A DNA stretch of 21,719 nt from a virus, in IMG/VR virus record IMGVR_UViG_3300020183_000526, positions 1-21,719 of that record. One strand, written 5' to 3'. Made by a program: the position numbers and the translations under genes. How positions within the stretch are numbered: the first letter of the stretch is position 1; the number at the start of each line of letters is the position of its first letter. Positions 2,663 through 12,600 of this stretch are shown here, piece after piece. The notes under the pieces are model-generated. The model saw only the letters and a list, made by a program, of their open reading frames with translations. It made no database searches and was not told where the DNA came from.

Positions 2663-4158
2663 AAGGTAAAGCCTCTTGAATAGGTTTCGGGTTCGACGAT
2701 ATGCAATTCTCTTTTTGCTCGGGTCAGGCCCACATAGAGCAGTCTGCGCATGTCATCGGGATTCTTTTGCAGTTCTTCCATGAACCGTGCTGAGAGGTCC
2801 AGGCGCAGTAGGACATTGTCCGCCTCCCCGCCTTTTGCCGCGTGGACCGTGGACAGTTTTACGGGGGCCTCGCCTGTTAGGCGCACCCCACGCCTAAGAA
2901 GAGCGATGATGTAGTTGCGCTTATCCTCGGCGATCTTGGTCAGGGCCTCGTGCCAGATGACATCGGTCAGTAGGCCGTGGTGGTCTTTAAGCTTTTGCAG
3001 GGTGTAGAGAGCCTCGGGATCACCGTCTTTAAAGGACTTATTGCCGCGTTTGACAAACTCCGTGCCGAGGTGTTTGTAGACCAGCGCCACGGTCGCGTAG
3101 TCCACTTCCTTGCCCTTGCGCAGGTTCTCCCATCCGATGACGGCGCGCACGATGGTCTCAGAAACGCTGCGATGGCCGTTGCGCTCGAAGAGAACGCCTT
3201 GGTCCAAGAGCCAGCCGTGGATGGGCGTGAGGTAGTAGTTCGTGAAGGCAAGGATGAGCCAGTTGCCCTTGGTCACGTCCACGTCGCTAAAGCGGTTGTA
3301 CCAAAAGAGCGAGCCTTCAAATCCTTCCTTTGGTCGCCATGTCTTTGGCTGTCTAATGCGTATCCGGTCGGATACTTCGTTGGCAAGATCGTGAATGACC
3401 GGTGGGACGCGATAGGACTGGTCAAGGATGATGTTCTCTCCTGGCAGCGAGAGGAAGGTGTCTACGTCCGCCCCTGCCCAACGGTAAATGGCCTGATCAT
3501 CATCCCCGGCGATGAAGGTTGTAACGCTACGCGCTACAAGTTCCTGGACCAAGTTCCATTGCAAACGAGAGAGATCCTGTGCCTCGTCGATGATGAGCAA
3601 CTCCAGCGTGGGCAGGCGCTCGGGTTCGAGGATGATTTTTTCTAGGAGATCGGTGAAGTCAAAGAGCAGGCGCTGTTCTTTGTACTGGCGATAGGTGCGC
3701 TCAACAAACTCAAAGTGCCACCACTCGATGGAAAGGCCGCTCTGGTTGTAGTGTGTGCGCAGGTCCATGCCCCGGATCCGGGCAAGGTTGATCTCATTGA
3801 GAATCGGGTTGTCTGTTTTGACAAGGCCCTCTTCATCTGATTCGTCAACCGTCAGCGTGAGCCGTGCAAGCTTGGCAAATTCCCTAAAGTGCTCGGGCGA
3901 CATCATGTCATTTTGCTTAACGCCCAGGCAGTGGTAGGCAAGACTGTGTAGCGTCCGAAACCACGGGAAGTCACTGTTACTCTGCAGGTGCGGGAACTTC
4001 ACAATCGCCCGCTCCTTGGCCTCGGCGGCCGCCTTGCGGGTGAAGGCAAAGTAGCCGATGTTCAAGGGCAGTGTGCCTTGTTCCAAGTACCGCTCTACGG
4101 TGTTGAGCAGGTAGGTTGTTTTGCCAGTACCGGGAGGGCCGAAGACCTTGTATATCAT
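2659..4158 (-). CDS. SF1 (UvrD/Rep-like) DNA helicase
   Basis: ATP-dependent 3'-5' type DNA helicase of 499 residues, probably unwinding at the phage replication fork or in repair. Motif I is GPPGTGKTT (7-15) and motif Ia is FAFTRKAAAEAKERA (38-51). Motif II is IIDEAQD (about 189-195), motif III is GDDDQAIYRWAGA (218-230), motif IV is LDQSYR (245-250), motif V is STVHAAKG (436-443) and motif VI is LLYVGLTRAKRE (473-484). It is shorter than cellular UvrD (about 720 residues), with reduced 1B/2B subdomains, as in compact phage SF1 helicases. Its ATG overlaps the primase stop by one base (TGATG) and its stop overlaps the polymerase ATG (ATGA), so the three genes are translationally coupled and probably made together. 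The ribosome site is weak. Its direction of movement is inferred from the family. Confidence 0.92.
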   Translation of the reverse strand: MIYKVFGPPGTGKTTYLLNTVERYLEQGTLPLNIGYFAFTRKAAAEAKERAIVKFPHLQSNSDFPWFRTLHSLAYHCLGVKQNDMMSPEHFREFAKLARLTLTVDESDEEGLVKTDNPILNEINLARIRGMDLRTHYNQSGLSIEWWHFEFVERTYRQYKEQRLLFDFTDLLEKIILEPERLPTLELLIIDEAQDLSRLQWNLVQELVARSVTTFIAGDDDQAIYRWAGADVDTFLSLPGENIILDQSYRVPPVIHDLANEVSDRIRIRQPKTWRPKEGFEGSLFWYNRFSDVDVTKGNWLILAFTNYYLTPIHGWLLDQGVLFERNGHRSVSETIVRAVIGWENLRKGKEVDYATVALVYKHLGTEFVKRGNKSFKDGDPEALYTLQKLKDHHGLLTDVIWHEALTKIAEDKRNYIIALLRRGVRLTGEAPVKLSTVHAAKGGEADNVLLRLDLSARFMEELQKNPDDMRRLLYVGLTRAKRELHIVEPETYSRGFTL

Positions 4159-5684
4159 CAGAACGGACTCACTTTGCTCTGCTCAGGCGTCTCGAACGGG
4201 GCGTCTTGCCGCTCGAACCGTGGGATACGCCAGCATCTTGTCTGCCTGCCTTTTAGAAACAAGGTGCATGGTTCACCGCCGAGATCGCGGACGCGCTGGG
4301 CCATGCGATTCAAGGACATGCCCAAGAAGTTATTGCGCTTTAAGTGTGCTTCGAGGTCCTTGAACCGGAAGTAGGTCTTGGCTTCTGCGTCATCCGTCCA
4401 AGGGCGGCCCATGAGAATCTCATCGCGGTCCATGGCCTGTTGCAGGTGGGTGGTGAAGTCTTCTAAGAGATCGAAGAACCGGCCAGTGAAGCTCGTGTCT
4501 TCTGGGGCCTCTTGGATCTGTTCGGTTTCGACCATCTCGCGCAGCAGGGAGTTGAGCACCTGCTCCCAGTCCTGTTTGCGTAAAGTAGGGGGCAGTACGT
4601 TGATGCGGTCGATGCAGGCCTTTTGGAAAAGGTTCTGGTTGTACAGGCTGTCGGTATCAAGCTCCAGCCGTCTGCCGTTCACGTCTAAGAACCACAGAGG
4701 CGGTTCGCTGTTGTACTTTGACAGTGAGGACAGGGCCGGGGAGTCTGGCCCGTTGGCCCCGATCCCGTGTTTGCGGGTCCTGCACATGCTGCTGTTGCAA
4801 AAGCTGTTTAAGGGCTGATCTTTGCACTTGTAGAGATAATCTTTTTTGGTCAGCTGCTTGACGATCACCTGTATTTCTGTGAGGCCCAGGGGCGGGTGAA
4901 AGTATTTGTTGTTATGTTCCATGAGCTTGGTATCCCAGTCATGGGGATGGGCTTTTTTCAGGTAGATCCCGATGTTGAAAAGCCCGTTGTTTCGTGTGCC
5001 TTCGGGAAAGCCTTGTGTGCAAAGGGCCTGCAGGCATGGTGGGCCGTCAGGAATAGGCTGGTCTGGCTTTGCTGGTGGGCTGACGTTAGGGACTTCGTCC
5101 TGTACGTGATCTGCGTAGAGTTGGTAAAACTCTTCCAGGCTTGCGGCCGTGCCGTCGTCTTTCAACGCATAGCGCATGCCCTCGTCACCTGCGAAATAGG
5201 GCAGGTTCAAGAAGTTGCCCGTGTCGCCACGGTCAACAAGGATTTCGGATTGCTTGGGGAAGATCTCTCTGCCTGCCTCGCCCAGGAGCGCGGCCATGGC
5301 CTTGAGCGTAGACTGCATATCAGCCGCTGATATGGGCTGGCGCATGAAGAGAAAGCAATGCGCGCCGCTAGATTTACTGCGGCAGACGACAAGAGGGAGT
5401 TTTAGCTTGCGGACTTTTTCTACAAGACCTTTGTGGTCTAGAGGATACTGGTCGATGTCGATGCAGCCCCAAATGCAGGTGTTGTCTGCACGGATTGGAA
5501 TAATCCCCAGGCTGGGCTCGACCCCCTGTAAATGCTTTTCCCACAGATCATCTGTTGGTGGCTGACGGACAACGACGGCCTTGCCAGTCTGTTTTCCATC
5601 ACCGCGAGACTTGTCTATTTTGTACGTCCCGTATGCAACATCCAATCCGGAGAAAATTGCTTTGAACCGTGTTATGTCGGTCAT
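4158..5684 (-). CDS. Archaeo-eukaryotic primase (AEP) fused to a PriCT/PriL-like cysteine domain
   Basis: 508-residue primase, probably synthesising primers for the polymerase encoded two genes downstream. The AEP catalytic set is visible: CIDIDQY (D76, D78), RSKSSGAH (H109) and SEILVD (D151), followed by GNFLNLPYF. This arrangement is known from primases of phages and of the TOTE conflict systems. A second domain (about 215-310) contains PPCLQALC, GTRNNGLFNIGIYL and YKCKDQPLNSFCNSSMC. C217 or C222 with C287, C296 and C301 form a four-cysteine set like a PriCT zinc site or a PriL Fe-S site. The C-terminal 200 residues are helical and charged, without a motif I recognise. No Walker A motif is seen, so the helicase function is in separate genes. 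The gene begins just after a rho-independent terminator, so its expression may depend on read-through. The AEP call is firm; the metal type is not. Confidence 0.85.
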   Translation of the reverse strand: MTDITRFKAIFSGLDVAYGTYKIDKSRGDGKQTGKAVVVRQPPTDDLWEKHLQGVEPSLGIIPIRADNTCIWGCIDIDQYPLDHKGLVEKVRKLKLPLVVCRSKSSGAHCFLFMRQPISAADMQSTLKAMAALLGEAGREIFPKQSEILVDRGDTGNFLNLPYFAGDEGMRYALKDDGTAASLEEFYQLYADHVQDEVPNVSPPAKPDQPIPDGPPCLQALCTQGFPEGTRNNGLFNIGIYLKKAHPHDWDTKLMEHNNKYFHPPLGLTEIQVIVKQLTKKDYLYKCKDQPLNSFCNSSMCRTRKHGIGANGPDSPALSSLSKYNSEPPLWFLDVNGRRLELDTDSLYNQNLFQKACIDRINVLPPTLRKQDWEQVLNSLLREMVETEQIQEAPEDTSFTGRFFDLLEDFTTHLQQAMDRDEILMGRPWTDDAEAKTYFRFKDLEAHLKRNNFLGMSLNRMAQRVRDLGGEPCTLFLKGRQTRCWRIPRFERQDAPFETPEQSKVSPF

Positions 5685-5698
5685 CTTCTTCTCGGTTG

Positions 5699-5728
5699 AA
5701 AAAGGCCGAGGGCCGTGGGCCCCCGACC
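5699..5728 (-). terminator. Rho-independent terminator between the ssDNA-binding-like and primase genes
   Basis: On the minus strand, GGTCGGGGGCC (5728-5718), loop CAC, then GGCCCTCGGCC (5714-5704). This forms an 11-bp stem with two G-U pairs, followed directly by TTTTT (5703-5699). It begins 7 bases after the stop codon of the 254-aa gene and ends 14 bases before the primase ATG. It would separate highly expressed early genes from the primase-helicase-polymerase cluster, with partial read-through. Confidence 0.8.
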
Positions 5729-5735
5729 TTGGAAG

Positions 5736-6500
5736 TTAGAACGGTGTTGTGCCTGTCTCTGCGGCCTCGTCGTGGTGCTTGACCTTCACGTCCCCGGCGT
5801 TAACCGAGGCAGCAAAAGCCTTTGCAGCCTGATAGACGAGCGCATCTTCAACAGGGCCGACACGTTCCACTTCCCAACCGAACCACTTGCCCTTGTCATT
5901 GGACTCAGCCACTGTGGTGAGTCGATAGACTTGGCTATACATGGGAGGCGTAAACAGTCCGCTCTTGCCTGCCACTTTTACGGACTGCATCATGCTGTTC
6001 CACTTGCGGGACTTCTTCAGCTGTGTGGACTTCATGCTGATCAAGGCAGGCTCAGGCGTACCGTCATCGCGAATGACCATCACATAGTGATTGGCCGTGT
6101 TCTCAATGTAGTTGCCATTGTCCAGATAGTCCTTGTTCTCGCCCGGTTCACGGTGAGTGCGCGACAGCACGTCACTGGTGGCGGGATACATTGATACAGG
6201 TGCGCCACTGCCAGACCCGCGAGGGGCCCACTCAATGTATTGCCGGACATAGGCACAAGGGACTACCTCAATGCCTTTCTTGCCATCATACAAATCACCC
6301 GTGACGCTGTTGTAAAGCATCCCAGGCATTGCCCCATCAACCGTACCAACCTCGGGTGAGGTGTTGGTCAGAAGGCGCAGAAAAGGAAGCGCAAAGTCTT
6401 CCTGATTCATGCCTTCAAAACCATCAAGGGCATCCTGCTCAAACATCGATGTGAGGGCTAAAGCACCCTCGCTTTTTGCTGCAACTTCTGTCTTGGCCAT
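5736..6500 (-). CDS. Conserved phage protein, putative ssDNA-binding or replication accessory protein
   Basis: 254 residues. I do not recognise a named domain with certainty. Seen: an N-terminal LTSMFEQDA segment (16-24) shared with the next upstream gene; a beta-rich middle; a basic block STQLKKSRKWNSMM (158-171) that could contact nucleic acid; and an acidic-to-aromatic tail, DEAAETGTTPF, reminiscent of the partner-binding C-terminal tips of bacterial and phage SSBs (known: DDDIPF-like ends). It lies between a DUF-type phage protein and the primase in the replication operon and is followed by a strong terminator, which would suit a protein needed in large amounts. Start ATG 6500; the AAGGA ribosome site overlaps the upstream stop. 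The SSB-like role is inferred from tail, composition and context only. Confidence 0.55.
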   Translation of the reverse strand: MAKTEVAAKSEGALALTSMFEQDALDGFEGMNQEDFALPFLRLLTNTSPEVGTVDGAMPGMLYNSVTGDLYDGKKGIEVVPCAYVRQYIEWAPRGSGSGAPVSMYPATSDVLSRTHREPGENKDYLDNGNYIENTANHYVMVIRDDGTPEPALISMKSTQLKKSRKWNSMMQSVKVAGKSGLFTPPMYSQVYRLTTVAESNDKGKWFGWEVERVGPVEDALVYQAAKAFAASVNAGDVKVKHHDEAAETGTTPF

Positions 6501-7469: not shown

Positions 7470-8924
7470 ATGGAAGACAAACATTTAGGGCGTTATCCCT
7501 TTAAAAACAAGCCTTTCCTGCATCAGCAGGCCTATCTACAGCGCTTCTGGAAAGAGCCTGTGGCCGCGCTTTTTGCTGACATGGGCACGGGCAAGAGCTT
7601 CATGTTGATCAACAACACCGCAATGCTCTATGACCAAGGGCATATCAACGCGGCGCTTATCGTCGCACCCAAGGGCGTGTACAGGAACTGGTACAAAGTC
7701 GAATTGCCCAAGCACATGCCTGAGCACGTGGTGTACCGAATGGCTATCTGGAACCCTGCGCCGAGGAAGGCAGAGAAGAAGGCCCTTGATTCGTTGTTCG
7801 AGATCACTGAAGATCTGAAGATCCTGATCATGAACATTGAGGCGTTCTCCACGCCCAAGGGGGCCTCGTATGCGCAGATGTTCCTGCGCAGCCACAAGGC
7901 TTTTTTTGCCGTGGACGAAAGCACGACAATCAAAAACCATTCGGCGCAAAGGACTAAGGCGACGATTAGGGCAGGCAGGCTGGCGAAGTACCGGCGTATT
8001 GCAACCGGGTCACCGGTGACCAAAAGCCCGATGGATCTGTTCTCCCAGTGTGAGTTTTTAAGCCCAGAATGCCTTGGAATTCACAGTTTTTATGCCTTTC
8101 AGGCCCGATACGCGGTGATGATAGAGCGCTCTGTTGCAACGCACAGTTACAAACAAGTCGTAGGCTATCGACATCTGGATGAGATTCAAGAAAAACTATC
8201 ACGCTTTAGTTTTCGGGTGCGCAAAGAGGAGTGCTTTGACCTCCCGGACAAGGTCTTTTTAAAGCGCGAGGTGGAGCTCACGCCTGAGCAGAAGCGCGCC
8301 TATGACCAGATGGTGCTGATGGCCCTGGTGACCTTTGAGAAGGGAATGACGACCACGACCAATGCGCTCACGCAGATCATGCGGCTGCAGCAGATCGTCT
8401 GTGGTCATGTGACCTTGGACGGTGGAGAGATCGTCCCGATCAAGAACAACCGGCTCGATGAGTTGCTGTCTGCGGTGGAGGAACTGGACGGCAAGATCAT
8501 CATCTGGGCGCACTTTAGGCATGACATCGAGGCGATCAAGCTGGCCCTGCAAAAGGCCCACGGGATGAACTCTGTGGCTACCTACTTTGGTGATACAAAG
8601 GCCGAGGAAAGGTCCGAGATTGTGGATCGTTTTTCTGATGAAAACAGCGAGTTAAGATTTTTTGTTGGGCAGCCCAGGACGGGTGGGTACGGATTAACCC
8701 TAACGGCGGCGCATACAATGATCTACTACAGCAACGGCTATGACCTGGAAGTGCGGCTGCAGTCAGAGGCGCGCATTGACCGCTATGGCCAGACCAACAA
8801 AATGACATATATCGACCTATTTACACCCAATACGGTGGACGAAAAGATCGTCGATGCGCTGCTGGAAAAGATGAACATCGCCAACACCATCCTGCAAGAG
8901 GATCCAAAGGAGTGGATTAAATGA
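7470..8924 (+). CDS. Snf2-family SF2 DNA helicase/translocase
   Basis: 484-residue ATP-dependent DNA translocase of the compact phage Snf2 type. Motif I is ADMGTGKS (36-43), motif Ia is ALIVAPKGVYRNW (62-74), motif II is DEST (149-152, followed by TIKN), motif III is ATGSP (178-182), and the motif V/VI region is GGYGLTLTAA (405-414) with QSEARIDRYGQ (431-441). Its length is that of a bare helicase core without added DNA-binding or nuclease domains. The Q motif region includes FLHQQAYLQRFW. It is divergent from the replication operon and its stop overlaps the nuclease ATG (ATGA), so the two products are probably made together and may act together in recombination or replication restart. The ribosome site GAGAG is modest. 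Substrate is unknown. Confidence 0.92.
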   Translation: MEDKHLGRYPFKNKPFLHQQAYLQRFWKEPVAALFADMGTGKSFMLINNTAMLYDQGHINAALIVAPKGVYRNWYKVELPKHMPEHVVYRMAIWNPAPRKAEKKALDSLFEITEDLKILIMNIEAFSTPKGASYAQMFLRSHKAFFAVDESTTIKNHSAQRTKATIRAGRLAKYRRIATGSPVTKSPMDLFSQCEFLSPECLGIHSFYAFQARYAVMIERSVATHSYKQVVGYRHLDEIQEKLSRFSFRVRKEECFDLPDKVFLKREVELTPEQKRAYDQMVLMALVTFEKGMTTTTNALTQIMRLQQIVCGHVTLDGGEIVPIKNNRLDELLSAVEELDGKIIIWAHFRHDIEAIKLALQKAHGMNSVATYFGDTKAEERSEIVDRFSDENSELRFFVGQPRTGGYGLTLTAAHTMIYYSNGYDLEVRLQSEARIDRYGQTNKMTYIDLFTPNTVDEKIVDALLEKMNIANTILQEDPKEWIK

Positions 8925-9631
8925 TCGACATGATCCCGATTCGCAAGAAGTACATCTACGAAAAGCTTGAGCGTGTGGATGGCCCGGAGGGGCGGACATA
9001 TGGCGAGCAGAAGCTGCCGAGTGTGACCAGAATCCTGGCCGCGACCAAGGACCAGACTGCCCTTGACGCGTGGGCCGAGAGGATTGGCAAAGACAACGCA
9101 GAGCGGATCAAGACCGAAGCGGCCACCGTGGGCACTCACATGCACATGGTCATGGACCGGATGATCGCGGGGCAGCCCCTCCCTCGCCCCACAAGCTGGC
9201 TCATGACTCGTGGGTATGAGATGGGGTACAGGTTAATAAACACTTACTTCCCTAATCTGCAAGAGATTTGGGGGTCTGAGGTGACGCTCTACTATCCTAA
9301 CAAGTACGCAGGGACGACCGATTTAGTTGGAGTCTATCGAGGGCAGCCAGCGATAGTTGATTTCAAACAGGCCAATAAGCCCAAAAAGCACGAGTGGATT
9401 CAAGATTACTTCCACCAACTGGCCGCGTATGCTCTGGCGCACGACGAAATTCACGGTTCGCACATCGAATTTGGGGCTGTTTTAGTCTCCGTGCAGGACG
9501 GAACTACCCAAGAATTCACCACTACCGGTAGTGAATTCTTGGATTACAAGGCGCAGTGGATGGAGCGGGTGGACGCCTATTGGAGAGGCGATCCGGCGCG
9601 CAGTGTGGCGTCAAACGGGAAAAGTGACTGA
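8921..9631 (+). CDS. PD-(D/E)XK nuclease (phage exonuclease, Cas4/RecB-like fold)
   Basis: 236-residue nuclease. Core motifs: GTHMHMVMD (H73), E120 in WGSEVTLYY, GTTD (D134), VDFKQ (D147, K149) and DYFHQLAAYA with Q166-x3-Y170. This is the order of the RecB/Cas4/lambda-type PD-(D/E)XK families. No four-cysteine Fe-S cluster of the Cas4 type is present. It is coupled to the Snf2 helicase by an ATGA overlap and is the last gene of the rightward unit. Its final 55 bases overlap, on the opposite strand, the end of the 1043-residue virion gene. A large inverted repeat (9508-9542) lies within its 3' part. Probable roles are DNA end resection for recombination or genome maturation (inferred). Confidence 0.88.
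   Translation: MIDMIPIRKKYIYEKLERVDGPEGRTYGEQKLPSVTRILAATKDQTALDAWAERIGKDNAERIKTEAATVGTHMHMVMDRMIAGQPLPRPTSWLMTRGYEMGYRLINTYFPNLQEIWGSEVTLYYPNKYAGTTDLVGVYRGQPAIVDFKQANKPKKHEWIQDYFHQLAAYALAHDEIHGSHIEFGAVLVSVQDGTTQEFTTTGSEFLDYKAQWMERVDAYWRGDPARSVASNGKSD
9508..9542. repeat. Large inverted repeat (16-base arms, 3-base bulge) near the convergent junction
   Basis: Arms CCAAGAATTCAC-TACC and GGTAGTGAATTCTTGG are perfectly complementary except for an extra CAC in the left arm, with no spacer at the centre. It lies in the nuclease coding sequence and, on the minus strand, starts 35 bases after the stop of the late operon. No T-tract follows in either direction. It could halt or stabilise late transcripts, or be a protein-binding site. 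Confidence 0.75.
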
Positions 9632-12600
9632 AGCATCTGCCTGCTCGTGGGCGGTTGTCCAGGAGCTCCGGGCATTGGTGGCGCAGCAGGAACCCTGGGC
9701 CCTGGGCCCTGAGGCCTGACACTCGGCGCACTGCTCAATCCCGGCACTCCCGTTGTGGGGGGAGCAGCGGGGAGTTGGCGTAGCAACTGAGAAGCAGGTG
9801 CCCCGGTGATGGGAGTAGTGGGGACTGTTTCTTCAGGGGGCTCATCGTAGGCGGCATAGTTGTACCCTGCGGCGAACAGATAGCCCCCAAGTTGTCGTGC
9901 CATACCCCTTTGGCGACCAGCAATCGGAGGGGCTTTTTCGAGGAGCATGGCCATGAGCTTTGGGTCTTGCGTGGCGTCTTCGATCATCCGGGTCATGGAA
10001 AGGCGTGGAATCTTGTCAAAGATTGAGCGCATGAAGCGAGAACCGGCCGAAGCAGCGATCAGGGACCCAGGGCCGCCTGGGGCGATTTTCCCGGCTCCTG
10101 CAGAACCTATCACTCGAAGAGCGAGATCTGTGAGAGGCGAAGTTACGCCGATGATCTCGTCCATGTTCTCGCGGCTACCGCTTTTTAAGGCATCCTCAAT
10201 GCGCCTCATTGGCGTGATAAGGCGCCGAAGATTTTTCTCTTCTGACAAGCTCATCAACCCCTGGCTGCGCATGACCTTAACGATGGAAGGCTGATTAGGG
10301 GCAAGTGGTGTAAATAGAACCCGTTCCAAAACCTCAGGGCTCATGGTCCCAGTACGGTTTGTTGCCGCGTTGAATGCGTAGTCATAGATGGAAGATTTAA
10401 GACCGGCAACCGCTTCTGGGCCGCCTTTTTGGGCGATCTTCACAAGGTTGTTCATGCTCTTAAGCGGGAAACGACTTCTCAGGGCATCAGAAACAGCCAT
10501 CGAAGCGTTCTCAAACTCCAGCAACTGAGCAAACCGCTGTTGGTTGCGCACCGCACGGTTGACTGCGCTGTTGGGATCGCCAAGGAGCTTGAGGGCGTTT
10601 TCGGCTACGGCCGCGTTTTCCAGATCAGGCGTGATGCCCATGCGATCCAACATTGGCTTGTTTTGCGCGGCCCACCGGGTAAGCCCAGTTACATTCAGCC
10701 TGCCCGTGTTAAGGTCCACATAGTTAGACGCAATTAACCGCAGTGCCCTTGTCTGAGCATCCGTGGTCGAAGCCACCTGCTCACGCGCAAATGGAAGAAT
10801 ATCCTGCAAGGCCTGAGCTTCTGCGCTGCGTGGGCCAAAGGCCGAGGCCAGATCTCTTTGAGCGCGCTCGAAAAACCCCACCGCCTCTTCAATTTCCTTC
10901 ATGCGAAGAGAAGTGAGATCCGCGTTAGAGGTAAAGGCCCGTGAAACAAGGATCTCTACCGGTAGTCGCTCCGCCCCGGAAGGCGCAGTGCGTTGCATGT
11001 CTCCGGCAAAAGAGCGGGTGAAGACATCGTTAAGAGACTTGGAGTAGGTCCGAGCCTTGTCATAGGCGCGGCTGTCCAGACGGCTGAGCGACTCAAGCGA
11101 TTCTTCTGCAAGGTTGCCATACAGGCTGGCGGCCGAGTTATCGCCCTGAGCGGAGGCTTTTCTTGCCAATTCCAAGAAGTTGCTGCGCATGTTGATGAGA
11201 TCGGTGACCTCGACAGGCTTCAATCCTTTTGGCAAAAACTCAGCAGGCACCGAGCCTTCGTTCAAGAACTGCTCTGTCTGACGGCCCAGCCGGTATCGGC
11301 CGATCATCTGGTCCGTTACTCCCAGATCACGCATCACGCGCTGAACAGACTGAGGCACGAGCTCGTCCACCAAAGACGGCGCAATCTGTGAGATGCGGTC
11401 GATGTAAGACTGGACGAGGTTGTTTGCTCGCACCTTACGGGGCACAAATGTGCCATCAGCCGCAGGACGCAGACTTGCTTTGTAGGCGTTGTTCCAGAGT
11501 TCTTTTTCTACCGTACGAGCCTGCCCTAAGGCCTGCTCGACGTTGCCCTTGATGATCTGCCCGATCTCGTACCGCGCAGCAGGTGTGTCCCTTGTGATAT
11601 TGGCAATCGCCTGGGCGGCGTTGGCATGCGCAATCTCAATGCTGCCTTCCATCAAGCCATCAAAATACTGCGCTTCGAGTTCTGCCGCCTTGCGCAGAGA
11701 CTGTGGATCACCAATGTTGCGCAGGCGCTCAACGATCATTTGATAAGCCTGGAAAGCCTTCTCGCCCTGCTCTTGTGTGGCCGCGCCGTACTTGGCGTGG
11801 TTCCCAGCAAGGGTCTTCTCTATCATGTTGAGGACGGGCACACCCGTCATCTGTCCGGCCGTGGGTTTGACACCGGGCGGAAGAGTTTGTTTTAGGGCTT
11901 TGATGATCTCGTCTGGATCCTCGCCTGCTTCGATTAGTGCAGCACGAAGGACACCGCCCGTCCGTGCCTCCCTAGTGCCCTGGGAGAACTGCCCAGCCAA
12001 GTTTCCAAGAAAGTCGGTGGTACTGGAAGATACGTTGACTAGTAGTTTTACGGGAGAGAACAAAACTGCTCCACCCACTAATTCTGCCCCCAGGCGAACC
12101 CCAGGCTGACCCGGAGCATAGGCCTCTGCCATGCCCCCAGCGATTCCGGCTCCCGTTGAACCAATTGTCTGGTTTATCAAAAAAGATTTTGGCTGCTCTC
12201 GTGCCGATTTTCCAAATCCCGACAAGAAACGAGAAACCATATTTCCAGACATCTGTGGGATGCCAAAGGCAACAGGAGCAAAGGCCATAGACATACCAAA
12301 TGTCTTACCACCTTCACGATACGGAGCCAAATCCTCGCGAGGAACCCCGGGAAATAGGTCCCCCAAAGGCTCAGAAGCCAAAAAGCCCGCAGTCAGGCCG
12401 CCCAAAAAGCCTACTGTTCCGCCAACAACAGCACCAGGAGGACCTCCAACTGCTCCACCGGCCAGTGCGCCATACTTACCACCAAGAAGACCACCGCCCA
12501 GCACGGGTAGCCCGGTGACCACCCCTTCTACTGTGCCTACTCCAACCTGTTCAGCCTTTTCTCCCAGCGTGGGATCAGAAAAAAAGTCCCCTTCTGGCAA

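Follow-up and report, generated by a model that had tools for sequence, protein, structure and literature searches.

What role could a near-perfect inverted repeat play inside the coding sequence of a nuclease, at the very place where this gene meets the last gene of an opposing late operon tail to tail? The window, i.e., the whole stretch of DNA analyzed here, is a virus record of 21,719 bases. The minus-strand open reading frames (ORFs) that run from 21,717 down to 9577 form a late operon of structural and DNA-ejection genes, with PHROG matches to head or virion proteins and, weakly, to a tape measure and a DNA-ejection protein. A second minus-strand block extends from about 7430 downward and carries a DNA polymerase and a helicase, both matched in PHROG, together with a primase that is recognized by its likeness to phage DSL-LC04. 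The helicase and nuclease genes listed in Table 1 make up a plus-strand pair flanked by these two blocks, and the nuclease overlaps the last late gene by 55 nt.

The closest named relative is DSL-LC04, a lake phage assembled from a metagenome (PMC10611076), the nuclease of which is 66% identical; no close cultured relative is found among the phage records listed. Its gene order matches that of the window, with the nuclease overlapping, tail to tail, a gene annotated as “DNA transfer protein”, which is the counterpart of the 1043-aa late protein, itself without a match in the PHROG search. In the 50 kb of DSL-LC04 that were read, a short ORF is labelled sigma-G and no RNA polymerase gene is annotated.

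Table 1. Features at and around the junction of the late operon and the nuclease gene (coordinates of the window).
Feature	Position	Strand	Remarks
RNA hairpin, 17 pairs (6 G-C, 9 A-U, 2 G-U), loop CGGTA	9506..9544	minus	folded with flanks, -24.4 kcal/mol
Spacer from the late stop to the 17-bp stem, 32 nt	9545..9576	minus	
Last late-operon gene, 1043 aa	9577..12708	minus	stop TAG 9577-9579; Pro-rich C-terminus
Nuclease gene	8921..9631	plus	phrog_298, exonuclease; “PD-(D/E)XK nuclease” in DSL-LC04
Helicase gene	7470..8924	plus	phrog_62
Candidate Rho loading region: among 80-nt bins of the late genes, the richest in C relative to G (C minus G = 26)	9752..9831	minus	

The inverted repeat lies exactly where the original prediction placed it, at 9508-9542 and within the nuclease gene, and a repeat search returned arms of 15 nt each (9508-9522 and 9528-9542), 93% complementary and separated by 5 nt. 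The 16-base arms interrupted by a 3-base CAC insertion that had been proposed earlier are a possible register, but one that leaves a loop of zero, and the remark that the 3-base difference preserves the frame is uninformative, given that the entire repeat is ordinary nuclease coding sequence. The repeat does adjoin the late stop, at a measured distance of 34 nt (32 nt for the 17-bp stem) instead of 35. On the minus RNA, it folds into 15 unbroken pairs, including one G-U, around the loop CGGTA (-21.0 kcal/mol), and these are the inner pairs of the 17-bp stem. On the plus RNA, 12 and 3 bp flank a single C.A mismatch (-17.6 kcal/mol), the position of which corresponds to the G-U pair of the minus RNA. 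The nuclease codons for QEFTTTGSEFLD are the antisense of this hairpin.

The z-score against shuffled sequences is approximately -6.3 on both strands. When stems were counted with one wobble or A.C permitted and loops of 3-9, the window was found to contain one stem of at least 15 pairs, which was matched in none of 20 dinucleotide shuffles of the window, and three stems of at least 13 pairs, compared with a shuffle mean of 0. A chance repeat was thus rejected, since no equally long stem arose in the 20 shuffles. In a scan of the coding sequence (2237 segments of 42 nt at 9-nt steps, on both strands), the hairpin had the lowest minimum free energy of all the 2237 segments, but ranked only 8th of 4474 strand-segments by the synonymous-codon z. 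The strongest values of this z occur elsewhere in the window, at 4662-4703 (-5.9) and 7866-7907 (-5.8), on the sense RNA with 60 shuffles. Membership of an Rfam family was rejected, as the covariance models of Rfam 15, run on positions 9300-9800, matched nothing at E values up to 1.

The repeat encodes QEFTTTGSEFL, part of a motif that is widespread in this nuclease family, and GAA TTC is itself palindromic, which provides part of the pairing for free. The folding was therefore compared with that of sequences in which the peptide had been recoded at random with synonymous codons, and the hairpin of the window exceeds what the protein code demands, with p = 0.0007 on the minus RNA (2/3000) and p = 0.006 on the plus RNA. 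This null was applied, with the codon usage of the window, to 27 chosen loci, which include eight distinct loci with the peptide QEFTTTGSEF. The original prediction had named relatives with the same protein sequence and no pairing as the observation that would speak against it; all eight of these loci keep the hairpin on the minus RNA, each with p <= 0.001. The loci L089/L184 and L091/L215 seem partly broken until G-U pairs are permitted: L089 and L091 are half-paired on the plus RNA, and form 12 inner and 4 outer pairs on the minus RNA when G-U is included.

These nulls bear directly on the proposal that the repeat is a coincidence of coding, in which the conserved QEF-x5-EF motif would pair with itself through its two GAA TTC copies and the remainder would be due to chance. 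The two GAATTC copies provide 6 pairs by themselves, a degenerate pattern of the motif retrieved 53 stretches of viral contigs, all with a nuclease match, and five loci (L005, L006, L007, L217, and L205) have a form of the motif with folding that is not above expectation. Even so, such a coincidence is improbable and was rejected on the synonymous-codon nulls, given that the same-peptide loci stand out when the protein is preserved, that 11 of the 21 clusters of relatives described below reach z < -2 against a synonymous null, and that the registers of L009/L015, L092, L101, and L207 are independent of the EF-EF pairing.

The relatives were obtained from two protein scans, a late-protein scan, two pattern scans, and DSL-LC04, and were restricted to those of at least 48% identity, which comprise 79 distinct nuclease ends with an answer, the more distant ones being omitted. 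The late-protein scan of viral contigs yielded only 2 loci, and the motif pattern had 0 matches in genome contigs. The main test covered 58 loci in 21 clusters (85% identity), anchored on the true late stop, in which the best 45-nt segment at 10-nt steps was compared with 60 shuffles based on the codon usage of each locus itself; a locus was counted as overlapping if its late stop lay no more than 15 nt past that of the nuclease.

In the first 105 nt of minus RNA after the late stop, the mean cluster z was -2.26, with 11 of the 21 clusters at z < -2, and the signal fell to a mean of -0.62 (3/21) at 105-210 nt and 0.03 (0/21) at 210-315 nt. The first region lay below the third in 19 of the 21 clusters (Wilcoxon p 4e-5), and an extension to 150 nt gave a mean of -2.27, with 12/21 clusters at z < -2. 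The folding signal thus belongs to the end of the late transcript and to a single direction, and is found in about half of the clusters. A 45-nt profile slid from the late stop reached a mean z of only -1.44 at best, a blurring due to the different positions of the hairpin among the loci.

A variant run, with the anchor at most 75 nt past the motif, found 14 of 20 overlapping clusters at z < -2 and a mean of -3.02, values to be read with the true late stop lying more than 75 nt past the motif in 16 of the 58 loci. The averages of this run used only the majority gene-order class of each cluster, which dropped 5 of the 79 loci (L005, L210, L191, L189, and L026), and its 30 clusters include 2 cut at contig ends and 2 without a long minus-strand ORF nearby. 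Individual values are noisy, as exemplified by L092, with -4.97 in the variant run and -2.28 in the main test.

The clusters that missed z < -2 numbered 10 of 21 in the first 105 nt and 9 in 150 nt, the latter being the L195 group, L005, the L200 group, L016/L021/L022/L024/L025, the L217 group, L029, the L216 group, L192/L202/L172, and L203. Weaker hairpins are present in the L195 and L200 groups, and the hairpin lies further on in the L016 group; L005, L217, and L029 practically lack one in the first 150 nt. The locus L005 is overlapping and 73% identical, with z of +0.4, and counts as a miss in the main test, in which it forms its own cluster. In the L008-L022 group, a second minus-strand hairpin was observed in the nuclease coding sequence, some 84-107 nt past the late stop, and the z of the second region is approximately -2 to -3.7 in several loci.

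The hairpin recurs among the relatives with different sequences, and in the loci that passed the test, the strongest one begins between 7 and 107 nt past the late stop, a variation on which read-through of the late stop codon was set aside. The register of the window is shared by L166, L082, L215, L167, L201, L165, L193, L182, L017, and others; L009-L015 have another register, L092 and L207 a further one, and L101 and L169 others still. Compensatory changes, which the original prediction had suggested looking for, were found in two alignments. In 28 rows of the window register, the covariation score was 0.230, compared with 0.140 in shuffled alignments (0/500), the share of paired cells fell from 75.8% to 35-40% when the partner was slid, and the pair formed by columns 15 and 25 takes six standard pair types. 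These rows were hand-picked from 32 loci, with 4 identical segments omitted and the non-pairing ones included, and 2 of 5 measures were not above the shuffles. In 10 close rows, which were picked as hairpin carriers, the score was 0.221, compared with 0.131. The shuffled controls leave relatedness in both comparisons. Two double changes with the pairs preserved distinguish L003/L004 from the window.

These differences also bear on a reading at the level of the DNA, by which the palindrome would form a cruciform or a site for protein binding, much as the original prediction had envisaged a recognition site for a phage protein. The window does contain GAATTC twice and a near-perfect dyad, with the 14-bp CACTACCGGTAGTG at 9520-9533, and the arms of L003/L004 are perfect over 15 bp. 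Among the relatives, however, neither the sequence nor the register is conserved, and in L215, L184, L201, and L193 the full stem exists only as minus RNA with G-U pairs. A DNA-binding palindrome is, given these registers and wobble pairs, highly improbable and was rejected, and the recognition site is not supported, with unrelated hairpin sequences and wobbles that aid the minus RNA only.

The relatives in which the two genes do not overlap provide a natural control. In six clusters, a gap of more than 15 nt separates the nuclease from the end of the late gene, and the nuclease region past the motif has z < -2 in only one of them (L183). A hairpin is present within the gap itself in three of the six: in L180, with 12 bp, poor in U and 39 nt past the late stop; in L097/L098, with 10 bp; and in L095/L162, with 8 bp and a run of U on the plus side. 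The gap of L007 has no clear hairpin, and L031 was grouped with the branch described next.

In this branch (L026-L028 and L030-L036, 52-56% identical), all 10 loci have a minus-RNA hairpin that is followed, within a few bases, by at least 5 U. The hairpin occupies the last codons of the nuclease, or the nuclease stop in L034 and L036, and the nuclease tails read, for example, AKSGPGPDPG or EKNPGRGPG. These hairpins look like ordinary terminators written in antisense, and are the strongest hint of function. Some caution is due in this branch, given that in L030, with the hairpin near 5700, a 126-aa minus ORF at 5922 and a 1130-aa ORF at 6299, the nearest long minus ORFs end approximately 220 and 600 nt upstream of the hairpin.

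The strand on which the structure is maintained can be read from the same clusters. The minus z was below the plus z in 16 of the 21 (p 0.016), and in 14 (p 0.05) at 0-150 nt. At the mirror position, i.e., the plus RNA past the nuclease stop and inside the late gene, the mean z was 0.06 (n = 56), and a mirror hairpin for the nuclease transcript was rejected on this basis. Given this absence of selected structure, the earlier suggestion of a block to opposing polymerases received no specific support. A role of the plus strand in the nuclease mRNA, whether in decay, RNase III cleavage, or slowed translation near the C-terminus, would fit the plus RNA reaching z < -2 in 8 of the 21 clusters and folding better than the minus RNA in L008/L017. 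This role is quite improbable, though, considering that G-U pairs favor the minus RNA, that the minus RNA is the stronger in most clusters, and that in L180, L095/L162, and L097/L098 the nuclease region has no excess folding and the hairpin is found in the gap.

Taken together, the minus-strand folding, the covariation, and the U-tract branch make the ending or protection of the late mRNA the best supported of the roles originally suggested, and we estimate at roughly two in three the probability that the hairpin acts at the 3′ end of this mRNA. In this process, the hairpin would form in the short untranslated tail of the late transcript and would set or protect its 3′ end. Late transcription would thereby be kept from running antisense through the nuclease and helicase genes into the replication genes, which share the late strand from about 7430 down. 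Because of the tail-to-tail overlap of the two genes, the element is written in the codons of the nuclease, where it would be kept by synonymous changes and a few amino-acid changes.

The features of the hairpin itself indicate what kind of 3′ end this may be. It is stable, past the last gene of the operon, at -21 to -24 kcal/mol on the minus RNA and 32-34 nt from the late stop, but its stem is not rich in G+C as in intrinsic terminators, with 6 of the 17 pairs being G-C, and its tail, AGUUCCGU, has no U-tract. In 20 cluster representatives, the 8 nt past the hairpin have a mean of 2.1 U, compared with 2.05 expected. In respect of bidirectional terminators, the plus RNA folds less well, and on this strand the hairpin precedes the nuclease stop. 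A consensus scan found no terminator-like site on the minus strand between 9506 and 7433. A terminator-like hairpin with a T-run was observed at 6451-6472 on the plus strand, antisense to the minus ORF 5736-6500, a type of site no commoner in the window than in shuffled sequence.

Without a U-tract, the hairpin may itself stop the host RNA polymerase independently of Rho, as a terminator similar to those called I-shaped. Stable stems of 15-18 bp near the late stop are in line with this, as are the 12-bp gap hairpin of L180, which is poor in U while free of any coding constraint, and the U-lacking stem-loop 3′ ends of Streptomyces, which are likened to I-shaped terminators in PMC8269248. On the other hand, the low share of G-C pairs in the stem of the window weighs against it, as do the U-rich minus-RNA hairpins that DSL-LC04 (L218) has after its DNA polymerase and major capsid genes (27939-28056 and 3523-3655), from which it seems that this group of phages uses ordinary terminators elsewhere. 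Direct termination of this type is possible but unlikely, and ranks below a route through Rho.

In the preferred mechanism, which we put forward tentatively, Rho would load where the end of the late gene is rich in C and release the transcript, which would then be trimmed from 3′ to 5′ back to the hairpin. The candidate loading region of Table 1 is followed by a second C-rich, G-poor stretch at about 9521-9640, at the end of the late gene, and among the relatives, the terminal 300 nt of this gene take first or second place by C minus G in 14 of the 18 clusters ranked, 2 further clusters being too short to rank. The C-rich, G-poor RNA coincides with the Pro-rich C-terminal tail of the late protein (9577-9900, minus strand), and Pro-rich coding may be its cause. 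As the C-rich end also encodes this tail, the Rho step is something that we infer.

Three known systems resemble the present one in part. Overlapping convergent transcripts that end in the opposing gene have reportedly been found in bacterial transcriptomes by Ju, Li and Liu in 2019. The convergent genes with transcripts overlapping at their 3′ ends are shared with this arrangement, which differs from the conserved and shifting structure described here, known from sequence alone and mostly in uncultured phages. In the case of Rho-dependent ends, PMC9927376 describes RNA past the Rho release site as being removed by a 3′-to-5′ exonuclease, after which a stem-loop marks the stable 3′ end, and PMC8269248 also reports U-poor stem-loop 3′ ends after Rho release. 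The stable stem-loop past the last gene, the lack of a U-tract, and the C-rich, G-poor RNA upstream are all common to both; by contrast, the stem-loop here is written antisense to a protein-coding gene of a phage, is under dual constraint, and the part of Rho is putative.

With intrinsic or bidirectional terminators, the likeness consists of a hairpin with compensatory changes at a tail-to-tail junction, as in PMC5381666, and of the U-tract form present at the junction in L026-L028 and L030-L036. The hairpin of the window differs from these in lacking a U-tract, in lying inside the opposing coding sequence, and in having a structure selected only in the late direction. A search with few terms, on titles and the beginnings of abstracts in a literature of partial coverage, found no description of an embedded late terminator in phages.

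What this junction contains is most likely a hairpin of the 3′ end of the late operon, hidden in antisense within the overlapping convergent gene, which would have been kept and re-made in about half of the lineages compared. More doubtfully, a group of uncultured phages may keep a U-tract-free late hairpin in the codons for the C-terminus of the opposing nuclease, re-evolve it in new registers, and shift it into the gap wherever the two genes come apart, with one branch having exchanged it for a U-tract terminator, so that the C-terminus of the nuclease would be partly shaped by RNA.

Compact genomes have scarce room for terminators, and one stretch of DNA has apparently been selected here on both strands, for the protein that one of them encodes and for the RNA structure that the other forms, with the gene orders with and without overlap available as a natural control. 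Terminator finders miss such embedded signals for lack of a U-tract, and the case therefore bears both on how frequently 3′-end signals are hidden in opposing coding sequences and on how these signals may limit or shape the C-termini of the proteins.
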